In this document: piece by piece, positions 16,119 through 29,926 of the stretch
Layout of the letters: every line of letters starts with the position of its first letter
Numbering within the stretch: position 1 is the first letter of the stretch
DNA from: Candidatus Gastranaerophilales bacterium
GTDB lineage: Bacteria > Cyanobacteriota > Vampirovibrionia > Gastranaerophilales > Gastranaerophilaceae
Length of the DNA: 64,000 nt
Assembly (NCBI GenBank): GCA_944323135.1
Contig: CALURI010000006.1
Coordinates: forward strand, 1-64,000
Direction: 5' to 3'
Translations under genes and position numbers: made by a program
The notes under the pieces: generated by a model
Seen by the model: the letters and a program-made list of their open reading frames with translations, nothing else
What the model was told of the DNA's origin: nothing
The model's database searches: none

Positions 16119-16183
16119 AAAAAAGCCTAAATTTACAAAAAATATATTTATGATAAAATAATTATATCTCATGAAAATAAAAT

Positions 16184-16265
16184 GTCGACGTGACGGAATC
16201 GGTATACGTACACGTTTGAGGGGCGTGTGGGGTAACCCGTGCGGGTTCAAGTCCCGCCGTCGACA
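16184..16265 (+). tRNA. tRNA-Leu (anticodon GAG), no encoded CCA
   Basis: The 82-base gene folds as a class II tRNA: acceptor GTCGACG with CGTCGAC (16258-16264) and discriminator A, anticodon stem CACGT/GCGTG with loop TTGAGGG (anticodon GAG), a short variable arm (TGGGGTAACCC region) and T arm GCGGGTTCAAGTCCCGC. The bases after the discriminator are TTT, so CCA must be added after transcription. The 3' end overlaps the antisense 3' end of the serine recombinase gene and is the integration site of the element to its right. Confidence 0.93.
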
Positions 16266-17941
16266 TTTAACTTTTTAGAGCCTTTATGAAGAGGCTCTAT
16301 TTTAGTATTTAAGAGCTTTTGGCGGGTTCCATAGTCCTTTATTTCATTTACATCAGGATGGATATTTTTAAGTACCTGTTTTGCACTATTAGAACGCTTT
16401 TCAAGGGTTCCAGTCAAAGTCTGTACGTTTGCTGAAAACTCTTGTTTTTTCTGCAATTTTATTTGTCTCAAATGTTCAAATACAGGCTTTAGTTTGACAG
16501 AGAGTGTATTTGTATCTTCATTGAATACTATTTTGTCTATAATAGTTGCTAGCATCAAACGTTTTTCCTCGACTGTAGCCTTTAAATAGAGCTCAGGTAA
16601 TCTGTTTGCAAAATCTGCAAGTATATTCATACGGATAATTGTATCTTTTGAATTCGCACTAAGATTGCTGATTTTATTACCTATCTCATCCTTTTCTGCT
16701 TGCCATTTCTTCATAAGTTCTTTATGGGTTAAATCATCAATATCAAGTTCTCCGCACAACTTCTGCTTAACGCTATTGGAGATGATATCTGTCAGTTTAC
16801 TATATTGCTTCTTCAATTCCTCAATCGATTTATACTCGTATGCTTGTAAATTGCTAATAGCACTGAATACTTGCTCCTTAATTCGTTTTAGACTCTCATC
16901 AGGAATATTAAAGCTATCAATAATTTCTTGCATAGCCTCATCTATAAGGTCTTGACGGATATTCTTTTCCTTTGTATGGACTTTTGTATAGTTAGAACAA
17001 TGATAATAAATATAGTCACCGCTTTTATGAGCCCCATGTTTTAGGATTCCAACCATTGAATAACCGCATTTTGCACAAGTTAGGTAATTTGAATAAGTAA
17101 ACTGTACATTATGCGTCCTAGTCTTACGTGTATCTTTAAACATAAGCTGAACTCTATAAAACAGTTCTGGTGATACAATCGCTTCATGCCTACCATCATA
17201 TAACTCACCCTCGTATAATATTTTTCCCATATATATTGGATTTTTAAGGATATCCTCTATTCGTTTTTTCGAATATGCTCTCCCATATTTATCAACAAAT
17301 CCATACTTAGCTAGCTCTAGACCAAGCCCTCTAAGTGAAAAAACACTTGTAGGATACAATTCATATATTCTTTTAATATAGTGTGCTTTATCAGGGTCAG
17401 GAACAATTACACCACGTTTAGTTTTATCTCTTTTATTAAGATAACCGACAGGAGCTTTACCAAGAGCATAACCGCTTTGGGCTCTATGTTTTATTACCGA
17501 TTTTGTTCTGTCCTTAATATTCTTTAACTCTTGCGTTGCCATACCTATATATATTGCTAATACCATAGGCTCTAAGGTAAAAACATCATCAAAATGCTGG
17601 TTTATGCTGGCTATAGTAGTATTATAAGCTCTTAACATTGGCTGAACTATTCCATAATAATCTTCAATGTTTCTTGTTATTCTATCGAGTTGATACACAA
17701 CAATACACTTAACTCTTTTTGTTTTAATAAAGTTAACCATATCCTGATAACTTTTACGTTTAAGGTTATCACCGCTGAGATTGTTATCCTCAAAATATTT
17801 AAACTCGTAACCTTGTGCTAATGCATATTCTCTACATAATTTTTCTTGATTTTCGAGGCTCATGCTCTTAGCATTTTTATCCTCTTTACTTTTTCTACCA
17901 TAACCAACAATAAAGCCTTTACTTTGCGTCTTATTCTTCAT
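16247..17941 (-). CDS. Large serine recombinase (integrase)
   Basis: A 564-residue protein starts after AAAGGAGGAGAATTAAA. The N-terminal resolvase domain has the catalytic Ser in GYGRKSKED (near residue 17) and the LDRITRN segment. The recombinase domain follows, then a zinc ribbon (LTCAKCGYSMVG with YYHCSN, about residues 287-315) and a long coiled coil (about 350-415). It would catalyse attP x attB recombination. The final codons (VDGGT and stop) are read antisense through the tRNA, so the C-terminus is created by integration; the circular form would encode a different tail. It is the last gene of a three-gene minus-strand operon. Confidence 0.93.
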   Translation of the reverse strand: MKNKTQSKGFIVGYGRKSKEDKNAKSMSLENQEKLCREYALAQGYEFKYFEDNNLSGDNLKRKSYQDMVNFIKTKRVKCIVVYQLDRITRNIEDYYGIVQPMLRAYNTTIASINQHFDDVFTLEPMVLAIYIGMATQELKNIKDRTKSVIKHRAQSGYALGKAPVGYLNKRDKTKRGVIVPDPDKAHYIKRIYELYPTSVFSLRGLGLELAKYGFVDKYGRAYSKKRIEDILKNPIYMGKILYEGELYDGRHEAIVSPELFYRVQLMFKDTRKTRTHNVQFTYSNYLTCAKCGYSMVGILKHGAHKSGDYIYYHCSNYTKVHTKEKNIRQDLIDEAMQEIIDSFNIPDESLKRIKEQVFSAISNLQAYEYKSIEELKKQYSKLTDIISNSVKQKLCGELDIDDLTHKELMKKWQAEKDEIGNKISNLSANSKDTIIRMNILADFANRLPELYLKATVEEKRLMLATIIDKIVFNEDTNTLSVKLKPVFEHLRQIKLQKKQEFSANVQTLTGTLEKRSNSAKQVLKNIHPDVNEIKDYGTRQKLLNTKIEPLHKGSKKLNVDGGT

Positions 17942-17942
17942 T

Positions 17943-18110
17943 TTAATTCTCCTCCTTTATTGTACTATAAGTATTTAATTCTTTATCAACTCTCAAGCCT
18001 GTTGTTACAGCCTGTATCATTAATTGAATGATTAATGATTCTGCTTCTATTTCGGTGTTAAACTCTTCTGATGACAAGAATTCTACCTTTAACCTATCCT
18101 TCTTAGGCAT
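17943..18110 (-). CDS. Small hypothetical protein in recombinase operon
   Basis: A 55-codon frame starts at 18110, overlapping by 8 bases the end of the initiator-like gene, and stops one base before the recombinase ATG; the recombinase ribosome binding site lies within its last codons. The product (MPKKDRLKVEFLSSEEFNTE at the start) is acidic, with a helical middle. Tight packing suggests translational coupling of the three genes. I do not recognise it; such position is typical of small recombinase accessory or directionality factors, but that is only a guess. Confidence 0.6.
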   Translation of the reverse strand: MPKKDRLKVEFLSSEEFNTEIEAESLIIQLMIQAVTTGLRVDKELNTYSTIKEEN

Positions 18111-19593
18111 TGACAGAACCTGCCTCCCTGGAATAATAATTTTGCAAGCGACAAAGAATATCTAGCATTATCGTTACCGATTTTGGCTTACGATAAACAA
18201 GGAATGTTAGAATATTCCTGCGAATGTTACCCAAACGATTAAACTCTTCAAGCTCCCTGTCTGTAGCATTTACGTATTCAGTCCTCATGTGACTCCGTGT
18301 TATGTTAATGTCGAAATTATTCTCTCTGAGTATTTCAATAAATCTTTCTGCTATTAAGATTTCAGAGAGTGTCAAGTTGTCTGTTGTTGCCTCAACATCC
18401 TCTAACCATTGAAGACGTTCCAATAACAGTTCAGCCTTGCCAGTAAATAACTTTATTTGCTTCAACAAAACAGGAGATGTACTGTTAAGGACATCTGTCA
18501 ATCTCACTATACGTGCCTCATCCATAGTAATATCAAGCTTCCTGCGTATACTTGCTAAAGAGAAGAGTTTTAACTCAAATCTTAATGTCCGCTCCGCAAG
18601 TTCAACACCTCTATCACCAATAATATCAGTATATAAGGTTGCTTTAGTGATTCTTCTGTAACTGTAATCCAGCTCTTGTCCTTTAGAATAAACCACAAGC
18701 GAAAAGCCAGCCTTTTGTGCTTTCGGCTTTAACATCAATCCATGCCTGCCATATTTAGCGATATTATGTCTGTTAGTCGAGATAGGGAAGAATGAGCTAA
18801 TACCATCAATATATCTGTTGACCTGTTTTTGTGAATTTAGTTGAATATCAACAACTACATCACAGATGAAAACTTGTGCGTATTTAATAAATTCATCAAT
18901 GTTAAAGTCAACTATTCCTAGTTCTATAACCTTTTGCAGGGCTTCTCTAATATTATCTCTATGCAGGCTTCCAAGTACACCATTACCAGCCATCCATTTA
19001 CCTGTAATATCAACAACAAAGTAGCCTTTAAATAAAAACAGATTAATTAAGCCAACCTGTCCTTTATAATCATCATATCTGATACGGCGTTTAATGCTGA
19101 AATCTGAGAAAATATCAGGTTCTGGCTCTGGTTCTGGTTCAGTACCGCTTTCCTTTTTCTGTTGTTCAATTTCTAAATACTCTTGATATTCTTCTTCTGA
19201 ATCAAATAAATCTGATATATCGTACTCTTCATCGTCATATTCTTTAGATATAAATGAACGTCTGGCTGGTAGATTCCCCTCATCCTTATTATAGTATGAC
19301 GGCGGTTCTTTCGGATTTTCAACGTCTTCCATGATAAAATCTTCAAAATGTATTCTGTGCCCATAAAGGCCGATATTAATGCCTATTCTTAAACGGTCAA
19401 ATTCTATTCTTGTATGTGTCACACCTTTTGCCTCAATAAGGCTCATTGCAGTCTTTATCTGTGTCCTTAGAGTACTTAAGGCTGGAATTTTCTCCTTATC
19501 AAGATTGAAGTCATTAGTCTTGACATCACCAGTTTTTGATGTATCATTTATATTGTTGTTTTTTGAGTTTTCTGTTTTTGTAAATTTTTTCAA
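18103..19593 (-). CDS. Putative replication initiator (Rep-like) protein
   Basis: This 496-residue protein begins at a TTG (19593) whose AGGAGG sits in a hairpin loop. An unstructured N-terminus and an EPEPEPEP repeat (near 152-159) precede a domain with FSLVVYSKGQEL and RTLRFELKLFSLASIRRKL, resembling the R-x-E core of rolling-circle initiators of the Rep_trans/phage gpII type. The C-terminal third is helical. The place next to recombinase and CTAAC repeats fits a replication or mobilisation initiator. I cannot point to a definite catalytic Tyr, so the call is tentative. Confidence 0.45.
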   Translation of the reverse strand: MKKFTKTENSKNNNINDTSKTGDVKTNDFNLDKEKIPALSTLRTQIKTAMSLIEAKGVTHTRIEFDRLRIGINIGLYGHRIHFEDFIMEDVENPKEPPSYYNKDEGNLPARRSFISKEYDDEEYDISDLFDSEEEYQEYLEIEQQKKESGTEPEPEPEPDIFSDFSIKRRIRYDDYKGQVGLINLFLFKGYFVVDITGKWMAGNGVLGSLHRDNIREALQKVIELGIVDFNIDEFIKYAQVFICDVVVDIQLNSQKQVNRYIDGISSFFPISTNRHNIAKYGRHGLMLKPKAQKAGFSLVVYSKGQELDYSYRRITKATLYTDIIGDRGVELAERTLRFELKLFSLASIRRKLDITMDEARIVRLTDVLNSTSPVLLKQIKLFTGKAELLLERLQWLEDVEATTDNLTLSEILIAERFIEILRENNFDINITRSHMRTEYVNATDRELEEFNRLGNIRRNILTFLVYRKPKSVTIMLDILCRLQNYYSREAGSVNA

Positions 19594-21981: not shown

Positions 21982-22581
21982 ATGAGTACATACGCATTTA
22001 TTCGAGTGTCTACACTAGAACAGGACACAGAAAAAAATAAGATTGATATACTGCAATTTGCAAACCGCCTAAAACTCGGAAATGTTGAATTTACAGAGGA
22101 GCAATGTTCTGGGAAAATTAACTATAAAGAGCGTAAGCTAGGAGCATTAATAGATAACCTGCAATCAGGTGATGTGTTGATTGTTCCGGAACTTTCAAGG
22201 ATTGCACGCTCCATAACTCAGATACTGGAAGTAATTAAAGTTACGAAAGACAAGGGTATAACGCTTTATTCATTGAAAGAAAACTTTTGCAACAATGAAG
22301 ACTCCATATCAGCAACGGTTACAAGTACCATATTCGCTCTTGTTGCACAGATAGAAAGAGAATTGATTAGCATGAGAACAAAAGAGGCATTACATGCCCG
22401 TAAAATTGCAGGTATAAAACTCGGACGTCCGAGAGGTAAAGGGAAATCTAAGCTGGATAAACATAAGGAAGATATTTTAAAACTGTTATCTCTAAAAGTA
22501 CCTAAAACATTGATTGCAAAACAGTATGGATGTTCAATAGGAAATTTTTATAATTACATTAAAAAATTAGAAGTACAATAA
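21982..22581 (+). CDS. Small serine recombinase (resolvase/invertase)
   Basis: A 199-residue protein starts after AAGGAATAATT. The catalytic Ser stands in YAFIRVSTLEQD (near residue 9), with the LIVPELSRIARS segment near residue 70 and the long E-helix around residues 115-140. GRPRGKGKSKLDKHKEDILKLL leads to a C-terminal helix-turn-helix (LIAKQYGCSIGNFYNYIKKL). The size and layout match the Hin/Mpi invertase and resolvase group. In the element it may resolve multimers or invert a segment; no obvious pair of inverted crossover sites was seen. Confidence 0.9.
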   Translation: MSTYAFIRVSTLEQDTEKNKIDILQFANRLKLGNVEFTEEQCSGKINYKERKLGALIDNLQSGDVLIVPELSRIARSITQILEVIKVTKDKGITLYSLKENFCNNEDSISATVTSTIFALVAQIERELISMRTKEALHARKIAGIKLGRPRGKGKSKLDKHKEDILKLLSLKVPKTLIAKQYGCSIGNFYNYIKKLEVQ

Positions 22582-25361: not shown

Positions 25362-26474
25362 TTATATACTATTATTTTCATGTCTTCTTAATAATCCTCG
25401 TATTTCGTCATGTTGATAAATTAATCGGACTTTTGTCATAACTTCATCTTCTTCAATAATTTCAGTAATATTATTTATCAATCTTTCTTGAGATTCTTCA
25501 TCATGATAATAAATATTTATTATGGCATTCTTATTTGCTAGAAATACGTGCTTCAAAATTTTATGGTCTGTTTTATCTAATGAATGACCAATTACATGAA
25601 ATACGGGTTTAATAACTCTTTTAGGGTCAGTTAATAATTTTAAAAAATTCTGATATGCTTCTATTGTTCCATAACGATGTCGCTGGTTATGTTTTTTAAA
25701 AACATTGAATTCTACTGGGATGTTTTCATTTAAGTCATTCGGTAAGTAATTATAAAAACTATGAGTGCCTAACACTAAATTACAACCTTCTGTGGTACTA
25801 GCCTTACCATGAATATAGACATATACTGATTTTGGGTCAGCATATATGCTTTTTCTTTTGTAAAGTTTTTCATAAGTATCTGTATAGTTAAAACTTAAAA
25901 CATGTACAGAGCCTGTTTGGGGCTGAAGAGAAAAATCGTACTTTATAGTTGGTGTTATTTGTGTAAGTACATCTTGTATAATGTATTGTTCAAAGGCTTG
26001 TGTAAATTCACGTAATTGTCCATATAATAAAGTTACAAAATCTTGATAAGTTTGAATATAAAAGTGTATGTAACTAGGATTGCAAGGGTTTATGTAACCA
26101 TCTTTACATAACTGTTCACCCCAAGAAGTATCCCTTAAAAATTTTTCTATAGTTAATATATTAAAATCATTAATTCTTTTTTCTAAAGTTAATACCTTAC
26201 CAGAAGCAAGATAATTCTGTCTGCATATTTTTTCTATCTTTTTAATAACTGTATATATTTCATTTTCTAAGTCAATCCAAGTATTGCCTAATTGTTTTTG
26301 CCTAGTTATAAAGTGCTTCATCCATAAATTACAGTCACAGAGTTTCTTATAGTCTGTTTTGCCTTCTATCGGTTCTTGAAGACTCATTTTATGACAAGCC
26401 TCCAGAAAATCTTTATATGAAGTTTTTAATCCATGAGCAAGGTCAAATCCGTTTCCGATAACAAGAATGTCCAT
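25362..26474 (-). CDS. abiH: AbiH family abortive-infection protein
   Basis: The 370-residue protein starts after AAAGGATTAGGAACA. It opens with the characteristic AbiH nucleotide-binding-like motif ILVIGNGFDLAHGLKTSYKDF. Further family segments are WIDLENEIY (near residue 95), VLSFNYTDTYEKLY, YVYIHGKAS with NLVLGTHSF, and VIGHSLDKTDHKIL near residue 295. The length matches the family. AbiH proteins were described as phage-abortive-infection factors of lactococci. It is probably a defence cargo gene of the element; the BRO/DinD-like gene upstream is only 5 bases away, so they are likely co-transcribed. Confidence 0.88.
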   Translation of the reverse strand: MDILVIGNGFDLAHGLKTSYKDFLEACHKMSLQEPIEGKTDYKKLCDCNLWMKHFITRQKQLGNTWIDLENEIYTVIKKIEKICRQNYLASGKVLTLEKRINDFNILTIEKFLRDTSWGEQLCKDGYINPCNPSYIHFYIQTYQDFVTLLYGQLREFTQAFEQYIIQDVLTQITPTIKYDFSLQPQTGSVHVLSFNYTDTYEKLYKRKSIYADPKSVYVYIHGKASTTEGCNLVLGTHSFYNYLPNDLNENIPVEFNVFKKHNQRHRYGTIEAYQNFLKLLTDPKRVIKPVFHVIGHSLDKTDHKILKHVFLANKNAIINIYYHDEESQERLINNITEIIEEDEVMTKVRLIYQHDEIRGLLRRHENNSI

Positions 26475-26479
26475 TGTTC

Positions 26480-27328
26480 CTAATCCTTTTTCTTTATTTG
26501 TCTGGTTTTTCGATTATTAGGTAAAAAGTTTTCATCTGTTATAACGGATTTACCAGTTTCAATTTCAAGCCTTTTTCGTGCTTCTTTGGCAACACTTCCG
26601 CCTTGTTTAGCTACAGATTTATTTTCATCTAAAGTTTTGGGATTTCTTTGCTTTGAAATCTCTGTTGTTGATACTTCTGCAAGCATATTTAAAACAAGTT
26701 CCATATTTGACATGTTATCTCTAAGACTTTCCTTCTTTAAACCTTTAAAATCTTTATATTCGCGAGTTTTCATGCCGGACCATTCTTGTGTAAGTATATC
26801 TGTAAGAATAGCATATTCAGAATTTTTGACACCGCTTCTCTGCCATTCATCTGTGAGTGCTTTTCTTATTTCAATGGATTTTAAGCGTTGGTTTATCCAT
26901 TCAGGAGAATAACCTTTAGCTAAATAATATTGCAATGCCCTGTTAATAGCAATTTCAGGGTCTTGCATTTCATCAAGTCTTTCACTTCCGACTTTTGCTA
27001 ACCATAGCTTAAAAGGCTCGGCTTTGGGGCTTGGAATAGATTGAACAAGCCGTAATACTCCTTCAGTATCAAGGACATCCGTCTTATAATACTTTCCATC
27101 AGAAGCTTGCATTTTCAGTTGGTTACAACTTGTAACCAACTGACTACCCTCCTTGCGTAGCCTGTTTTTAAGTACTTTCCAATAATTGTTAGGATTTGTA
27201 CTGCCTGATAATATACCTACAATATCAACTACCGAAAAATACCAGGTTTCTTTTTCTTTATCCCAGCTCGTTCTGACCTTATAATCTTCAAACAGTTTTA
27301 TTGAAGTTTTTTTATCTTCCTCGTCCAT
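26480..27328 (-). CDS. BRO/DinD-like protein (putative antirepressor)
   Basis: The start at 27328 follows AAGGAGTTGTGTATT. The 282-residue protein has an N-terminal BRO domain (KVRTSWDKEKETWYFSVVDIVGILSG, about residues 14-39) and a DinD-type middle with YKTDVLDTEGVLRLVQSIPSPKAEPFKLWLA, then YLAKGYSPEWINQRLKSIEIRKALTDEW and a basic tail. DinD is a DNA-damage-induced inhibitor of RecA filaments and phage homologues act as antirepressors. It may relieve repression in the element or act with the adjacent AbiH gene. Confidence 0.85.
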   Translation of the reverse strand: MDEEDKKTSIKLFEDYKVRTSWDKEKETWYFSVVDIVGILSGSTNPNNYWKVLKNRLRKEGSQLVTSCNQLKMQASDGKYYKTDVLDTEGVLRLVQSIPSPKAEPFKLWLAKVGSERLDEMQDPEIAINRALQYYLAKGYSPEWINQRLKSIEIRKALTDEWQRSGVKNSEYAILTDILTQEWSGMKTREYKDFKGLKKESLRDNMSNMELVLNMLAEVSTTEISKQRNPKTLDENKSVAKQGGSVAKEARKRLEIETGKSVITDENFLPNNRKTRQIKKKD

Positions 27329-27536
27329 AATACACAACTCCTTATAAACAATTGTACCATGAATAAAAGAACTACATTTATAATTCAAGTATAAGACTCA
27401 TATTTTGTAATAAAGACGTGTCTGCTCTTTTATAAATCAAAAACTTTTATGTTTACTTATTCTTAATATGACACCTAATCCTGTCCTGTGGTTTTATAAC
27501 TATTTAAAGCTCCATGATAAATTCACACTATAATTT

Positions 27537-29140: not shown

Positions 29141-29278
29141 TTATGCACACTCTAGCCCCAGAGCAAGTCTCATGTTGTAATATTCCTGCGTAGAGTCTTT
29201 CATTATACTGATAAGTTCAGCGTAAACACTCATGCCTGCTGTTGAACAGGTGTTTTTATCGGGTACAATTGGTTCCAA
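29141..29278 (-). pseudogene. Degenerate small coding remnant, copy 1
   Basis: An open frame of 46 codons ends with GMSVYAELISIMKDSTQEYY and NMRLALGLECA. It lacks a convincing start. The same peptide pattern recurs at 29809-29906 on the same strand (LYSELISIMKQLTQEYYNMR), so both are probably remnants of one gene duplicated at the right end of the element. They flank the membrane-protein gene at 29323. Confidence 0.45.
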
Positions 29279-29322
29279 TATAGTAACGTTAACGACAATT
29301 AAAAAAGGAAGATTGTATAATA

Positions 29323-29787
29323 ATGAATGAGTTTGATTATAACAATAAGTTAAAAAAGTTTAATTGGGGAGCTTTTTTACTTGGTTGGATATGGGGTATA
29401 TTTAATAAAAGTTGGATAACTCTTATACAAATACCTATTTCTATATTGCCGTTACCAAGCTTAATATATAATTTTATAAACATTGGCATTATGATATGGT
29501 TCGGGATAAAAGGTAATAGCTGGGCTTTACATAATAAAAAATTCAACAGTTATGAACATTTTGTAAAATATCAAAAGAGACTTACAATTGTAGGTCTTAC
29601 TCTGCAAACTCTTTTTATTGTACTAAAACAAATATACATATCCTTTAATACACTTTATACTCCAACAGATTTTAATCCCATAACAATTAAAACTCAGCTA
29701 TTTATGATGATAAGTATTACTTTGTTTATATATTTGTTAATACTTATTTTTGTTCTTGTTCATAAAGACAAAGATTTAAAAAACTAA
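29323..29787 (+). CDS. Multi-pass membrane protein, DUF2628-like
   Basis: A 154-residue protein starts near AAAAGGAAGATTGTATAATA. It begins with KFNWGAFLLGWIWGIFNKSW (about residues 12-31), the feature of DUF2628-like proteins, and has four hydrophobic segments. A conserved-looking NSWALHNKKFNSYEHFVKYQ segment lies in the middle. It resembles the membrane part of the double zinc-ribbon protein at 24077. It is the last gene of the element; its function is unknown. Confidence 0.7.
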   Translation: MNEFDYNNKLKKFNWGAFLLGWIWGIFNKSWITLIQIPISILPLPSLIYNFINIGIMIWFGIKGNSWALHNKKFNSYEHFVKYQKRLTIVGLTLQTLFIVLKQIYISFNTLYTPTDFNPITIKTQLFMMISITLFIYLLILIFVLVHKDKDLKN

Positions 29788-29808
29788 TTTAATTAACTCT
29801 AAACCAAA

Positions 29809-29906
29809 TAAAACCTCATATTGTAATATTCTTGAGTTAACTGTTTCATAATTGATATTAATTCGCTATATAATGTCTTTGCACTATAGCCAAAGGGTTC
29901 CCATAT
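29809..29906 (-). pseudogene. Degenerate small coding remnant, copy 2
   Basis: The frame ends with LYSELISIMKQLTQEYYNMR then FYLV and stop, and is closed upstream by a TGA at 29907-29909. It is similar in both DNA and protein to the remnant at 29141-29278. No start codon or ribosome binding site is present. Confidence 0.45.
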
Positions 29907-29916
29907 TCAGGAGCTT

Positions 29917-29926
29917 GTCGACACCA
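29917..29926 (+). other. Putative attR: displaced tRNA 3' end with CCA
   Basis: GTCGACACCA repeats the acceptor end of the tRNA-Leu gene (GTCGACA at 16259-16265) and continues with CCA. Joining the tRNA to this point would restore a gene with an encoded CCA. It marks the likely right junction of the element. Confidence 0.65.

Follow-up and report, generated by a model that had tools for sequence, protein, structure and literature searches.

The large serine recombinase (LSR) encoded by an integrated element of a Candidatus Gastranaerophilales bacterium is proposed to carry its own attP inside its gene, to be stripped of a conserved C-terminal tail by integration and to regain that tail on excision, the tail acting in the free element. 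We consider this joint proposal fairly probable. The DNA analysed, hereafter the window, is a stretch of 64,000 nucleotides (GenBank assembly GCA_944323135.1, contig CALURI010000006.1, forward strand), and coordinates refer to it throughout unless a locus is named.

Recombinase gene and left attachment site

The following features lie at the left end of the element.

16183–16266, plus strand: tRNA-Leu(GAG), the integration target (ARAGORN and sequence)
16247–17941, minus strand: LSR open reading frame, 564 aa in the integrated form (Pfam Resolvase, Recombinase and Zn ribbon; PHROG integrase)
16262–16265, no strand: left attachment core GACA, between tRNA and element, conserved at the family's junctions
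16262–16331, plus strand: left-end block of ~70 bp common to relatives beside tRNA-Leu, which also codes for the LSR residues just before the core (alignments)
16276–16299, plus strand: terminator-like hairpin inside the LSR coding region, in the direction of the tRNA (fold z −2.0)

By its domains, motifs, predicted coiled coil and modelled fold, the window recombinase is a large serine recombinase. The catalytic domain was matched by PF00239 (E = 1e-24), and PF07508 (Recombinase domain) and PF13408 (zinc ribbon) scored above their cut-offs. Residues Y14, R16 and S18, the last of which we take to be the catalytic nucleophile, are invariant across 16 aligned LSRs, as are C289, C292 and C315. 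An AlphaFold model of a relative (locus L128) has long helices at residues 350–397 and 405–456, with a low pTM of 0.34, and the best PDB matches found by Foldseek are serine integrases, among them an entry titled autoinhibited phiC31 integrase with attL.

A first-pass annotation of this DNA had claimed that the recombinase frame crosses the left attachment site and that its last codons, VDGGT and the stop, are read antisense from the tRNA. Both points are borne out: the minus-strand frame at 16247–17941 reads through the site to a C-terminus of ..KKLNVDGGT, and the stop codon falls within the antisense T-loop of the tRNA-Leu(GAG) called at 16183–16266. The left end (79 bp) is present in 59 of 383 genomes of the order, and the junctions of the family share the core GACA rather than 7 bp. 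Placement of the crossover dinucleotide from half-site symmetry was dropped, as CAG-tRNA junctions have only GACA in common.

Displaced 3' end of the tRNA

The heptamer GTCGACA is present at 16259–16265 and again at 29917–29923. Directly behind the outer copy stand CCA (29924–29926) and then a hairpin, an arrangement as expected, from its sequence, of the displaced 3' end of the tRNA. The hairpin at 16276–16299, brought in by the left block, probably replaces the displaced terminator of the tRNA. As a side observation, integration strips the encoded CCA from the tRNA-Leu gene (16262–16266; CCA now at 29924–29926) and supplies a new terminator-like hairpin on its 3' side; of three other tRNAs of the same genome that were checked, Asp seems to have an encoded CCA, whereas Trp and Lys seem to lack one.

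Comparison of flanks within the genus at the DNA level gave short, weak matches only, divergence being too high for an empty site to be recovered by alignment, and the 3' flanks of the tRNAs were therefore used instead. Among 30 tRNA-Leu loci of the genus, 8 keep a native ACCA flank, the left block follows the tRNA immediately in 6, the flank is of another kind in 15, and one locus is cut.

Right ends of the element and the predicted circle

Tails were located by searching the fetched loci for the tail of relatives; two were found in the window, an inner and an outer one.

29144–29296, minus strand: inner right end, a conserved tail of 51 codons including the core Val, in the LSR frame, with its stop at 29141–29143
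29294–29297, no strand: inner right attachment core GACA; predicted circle of 13,032 bp
29298–29923, plus strand: outer cassette-like unit of 0.63 kb, consisting of one open reading frame (29323–29787, 154 aa), tail and core
29802–29903, minus strand: tail closing the outer unit, its frame shifted by one base against that of relatives; source of the 10-residue tail
29917–29926, no strand: outer attachment core GTCGACA and displaced tRNA CCA (sequence; native ACCA flanks in relatives)

The inner tail begins at the codon of the core GACA and extends the LSR frame by 50 codons, ..KKLNVVNVTILEPIVPDKNTCSTAGMSVYAELISIMKDSTQEYYNMRLALGLECA, to a total of 610 aa. Excision at the inner right end would thus restore a 610-residue LSR, against 564 residues in the integrated form. 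Joining at the two GTCGACA copies instead gives ..KKLNVDKLLNMGTLWL, with a stop at 29884–29886. This is the circle tail, KLLNMGTLWL, that the first-pass annotation had predicted; it is present in the sequence, but it arises from a one-base shift of the outer tail against the frame kept in relatives. Position 29917 was likewise not confirmed as the LSR element's own right end, since a nearer, conserved, in-frame end lies at 29294–29297; by its sequence context the site at 29917–29923 is the closing site of the separate 0.63-kb outer unit.

Neither predicted circular junction, inner or outer, occurs in the assembly from which the window comes. Scans of viral contigs by single protein and by alignment returned no circular relative and only one distant relative (28%).

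Other genes within the element

Two further features were annotated inside the element.

18103–19593, minus strand: Rep-like gene adjoining the LSR, with a weak Phage_CRI match (G2P N-terminal; Pfam E = 1.4e-4)
25362–27388, minus strand: cargo, comprising AbiH (25362–26474) and a BRO-N / PDC-S13 candidate defence gene (26480–27388)

The gene at 18103–19593 weakly resembles a filamentous-phage-type replication initiator, and replication of the element as a circle is therefore possible. Homologs of this gene adjoin many related LSRs. A second, small serine recombinase of 199 aa with a resolvase domain only is encoded at 21982–22581.

Recombinase C-termini among relatives

A scan of genome contigs for LSR relatives gave 47 loci, the close ones mostly in Candidatus Gastranaerophilales assemblies. 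In the fetched loci 64 occurrences of the left end, including that of the window, were inspected, an intact LSR being defined as an open reading frame of at least 480 aa. The LSR is intact in 24 of the 64; 21 of these stop at the tRNA T-loop, two carry on further, into the tRNA or beyond it, and one runs into the tail. The natural LSR-plus-tail gene (L110 and L128, which lie on the same G368 contig) encodes 603 residues in an intact fused frame. Its LSR is 95% identical to that at L129 (G371), which ends in the tRNA.

Six attP-like junctions were found, in frame in G278, G275, G359 and G368 and broken in G194 and G244. Counting against the proposal, the LSR is complete at such a junction in G368 only, the frame in G278 being open up to the contig end, and no circle was seen among these natural cases. 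Terminal repeats that would mark contigs G368:C47 or G278:C46 as circles were not found, and G368 is not simply a circle, because its tRNA retains CCA and a terminator 0.9 kb away. These comparisons support a change of the recombinase C-terminus on integration. That part of the earlier claim is thus supported, whereas the size given for the change is not: the conserved tail predicted for the free form has ~50 residues, not 10. The swap may be a switch that favours integration or prevents excision, as the annotation had suggested.

The crossing of a tRNA by the recombinase frame extends beyond this family. In a set of 60 related loci, in which some genomes are counted twice, the LSR stop lies inside an antisense tRNA in 45, the tRNA types being Leu, His, Glu, Asn, Ser and Gln; distant relatives among these 45 include records titled Planctomycetota, Moranbacteria and Patescibacteria. 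Across the order, 11 of 30 PF07508 loci (one per genome, best 30 genomes) end in an antisense tRNA. A long tail as a general rule was rejected, the attP-like tail of the tRNA-Arg LSR family having only a few residues. As far as the sequences go, then, the long tail is demonstrated only in the tRNA-Leu family and the frame crossing is wider. In one tRNA-Arg array (G057, L231:7477-16938), a 9.4-kb segment between LSR and tRNA gives the LSR a short alternative tail.

Selection on the tail and alternative explanations

Selection was assessed on 27 distinct, full-length, in-frame tails, which were picked by profile and for being open, a choice that biases any count of tails lacking stops. For the part after the EP motif, with the att-proximal part excluded, 94 pairs were usable; dN/dS is below 1 in every one of them, with a median of 0.34. 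Differences counted over 13 disjoint pairs are distributed 101/78/149 across codon positions 1/2/3 (p = 3.6e-6). Judged by these substitution patterns, the tail is coding and under purifying selection. In the AlphaFold model of L128, residues are ordered to ~510, and residues 511–603 have pLDDT below 50, with a helix at 574–602; at this pLDDT the structure gives no function for the tail. As the tail is under selection at the protein level and is fused to the LSR only away from the tRNA, a role in that state is likely. Tails are also kept in units without an LSR, which counts against the proposal.

Conservation of the tail as coding sequence would also suit a separate small gene of ~44 aa, for example for a recombination directionality factor (RDF), starting at an ATG or TTG beside the right core and fused to the LSR incidentally. 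The codon before the conserved EP is indeed ATG or TTG in 24 of the 27 tails. It is CTA, CAG or CCG in the other three, however, and a Shine-Dalgarno-like sequence stands at a suitable distance from only 6 of the 27 possible internal starts, compared with 21 of 23 LSR starts. The fused frame is moreover intact in G368, and engineered C-terminal RDF fusions are described as lowering attP x attB activity (PMC5737554), so that such a fusion would hinder re-integration. A separate gene is therefore regarded as unlikely. We are similarly doubtful that the swap of tails is functionless, with the position of attP explained by LSR binding to DNA within the gene and the added residues tolerated. The short attP-like tail of the tRNA-Arg family fits such tolerance, as do the assorted antisense-tRNA tails borne by distant LSRs, but the codon-position bias and the dN/dS of ~0.3 extend beyond the probable att half-site.

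A further possibility is that the element ends at 29917 and that its circular form has the 10-residue tail KLLNMGTLWL. A 7-bp core repeat does stand at that position together with the displaced CCA, and the outer site could serve to excise the array as a whole; against this, the conserved in-frame right end is 626 bp closer and the outer tail has left the frame that relatives keep. This reading is thought very improbable.

Proposed mechanism

Under the joint proposal, the LSR gene would hold its own attP ~50 codons ahead of its natural stop. When the element inserts into the 3' end of tRNA-Leu, presumably by exchange within GACA, the conserved tail is left at the right end of the element and the LSR acquires a short antisense-tRNA tail and stop in its place, as sequence and comparison show. 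Excision at the inner right end would then yield a 13,032-bp circle encoding the 610-aa enzyme. The tail most likely works while the element is free, where it may aid integration or set direction, and the truncated integrated LSR is probably a low-activity or RDF-dependent excision form. The same tail-plus-core also closes small cargo units, so that more than one tail could be used in closing the circle; the outer tail in the window is frameshifted.

Cassette-like units stacked at tRNA-Leu

A query made of the LSR C-terminus plus tail matched 178 of 383 family genomes; in many of them the tail was the only part matched, with several matches on a contig. The loci examined for units included 20 chosen for tail-only matches, in several cases lying on one contig. 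In all, the examined loci contain 47 tail-bounded units of 388–5298 bp (median 1065), not all single-gene, of which 15 begin with ACCA. The largest open reading frame of each unit points in the direction of the tRNA in 28 and the opposite way in 18, one unit having none, and the idea of one-direction cassettes was rejected overall (28 vs 18); in units below 1 kb the tRNA direction is found in 22 of 23. One candidate unit with a 231-aa frame, at the head of the L286 array, was discarded, its frame beginning inside a tRNA-Leu missed by ARAGORN.

Direction tracks a terminator-like hairpin at the left of the unit. Of the 47 units, 40 could be placed, 6 ambiguous ones and the one without a frame being dropped; tRNA-direction and opposite frames number 4 and 12 with the hairpin and 21 and 3 without it (p = 1.3e-4, the units not being independent). 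The hairpin is absent from all 15 of the placed units whose tRNA-direction frame starts at most 70 nt from the core.

A 1.57-kb unit consisting of block, Fic gene and tail, and lacking an LSR, occurs in G275 and G210, which are two species, the copies being 92% identical. The similarity stops at the core on both sides, and the unit adjoins a tail in one genome and a tRNA-like end in the other; G166 lacks it at the site where G275 has it. These shared edges lead us to infer that the LSR moves tail-bounded units, and the arrangement as a whole suggests cassettes of an integron-like kind on which a serine recombinase would act.

Among the cargo are PsyrT-like, SoFic-like and RhuM-Fic genes as well as ordinary ones, such as an iron alcohol dehydrogenase. 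In a tail-bounded unit beside tRNA-Leu in G275 (L062:1785-5938), a PsyrT-like helicase is accompanied by a DprA-like gene, a combination similar to the PsyrTA defence pair; a tail-bounded unit in G039 (L279:5905-7203) carries a RhuM-Fic gene that matches the candidate defence model PDC-S23.

The array may be a serine-recombinase counterpart of the integron, a reading held tentatively and with slightly more doubt than belief. The 3' end of tRNA-Leu would serve as anchor, and the ~150-bp tail ending in GACA would both close cargo units and encode the C-terminal module of the LSR, the closing unit supplying the tail and integration removing it. Units without a left-end terminator carry genes whose starts lie close behind the tRNA and which would be transcribed from its promoter.

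Comparison with known systems

The domain order and fold matches of the window recombinase are those of the large serine integrases A118/LI, phiC31 and Bxb1. No large serine integrase is known to have attP inside its coding frame. Among the matches listed, titles and abstract openings of the open-licence literature, a body outside which subscription papers mostly fall, contained no serine integrase whose own gene holds attP and meets a tRNA there. The 2014 Islander paper (PMC4383910) states that serine integrases were not known to target tRNA genes, and the word tRNA is absent from the available portion of the main text of PMC10083194. The elements described here, if correctly interpreted, would add tRNA genes as serine-integrase targets and antisense tRNA as the supplier of a protein end.

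IntP of Myxococcus phage Mx8 is a tyrosine recombinase. It resembles the case proposed here in having attP in its own integrase gene and a C-terminus changed on integration, and differs in that the present enzyme is a serine recombinase whose integrated C-terminus and stop come from antisense tRNA. According to PMC6070905, integration at the attP inside the Mx8 integrase gene gives a new C-terminus and is called a molecular switch; PMC4383910 places IntP under an 'integrase' term used for tyrosine enzymes only. The archaeal 'suicidal' SSV-type integrases also have the attachment site in the integrase gene, which is cut by integration; these tyrosine enzymes are split from their catalytic part and are described as exclusively archaeal (PMC8371274). 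In the LSR, by contrast, the N-terminal catalytic serine domain stays intact and the C-terminal tail alone is lost. If the proposal is true, integration-controlled recombinase C-termini, known from tyrosine enzymes, extend to serine integrases, and a C-terminal module that occurs naturally, is under selection and is joined to the enzyme only outside the integrated state offers a direct handle on serine-integrase directionality.

Insertion of variable cargo by serine recombinases at the 3' end of one gene, with multiple attR sites, is described for SCCmec and the enterococcus cassette chromosome (PMC6222049). Those systems use Ccr recombinases and rlmH as target in place of tRNA-Leu, whereas the units here can consist of a single gene in less than 1 kb, and the recombinase has its own tail encoded by the site. 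The integron integrase is a tyrosine recombinase that acts with folded attC sites. The likeness to integrons lies in compact single-gene units that end in a recombination site and are stacked behind one anchor; unlike in integrons, the anchor gene here is a serine recombinase, there is no IntI tyrosine integrase, and the unit genes are not all in one orientation. If the LSR moves the stacked units, some of which carry anti-phage genes, the arrays at tRNA-Leu would represent a second way of building gene-cassette arrays, in gut bacteria.
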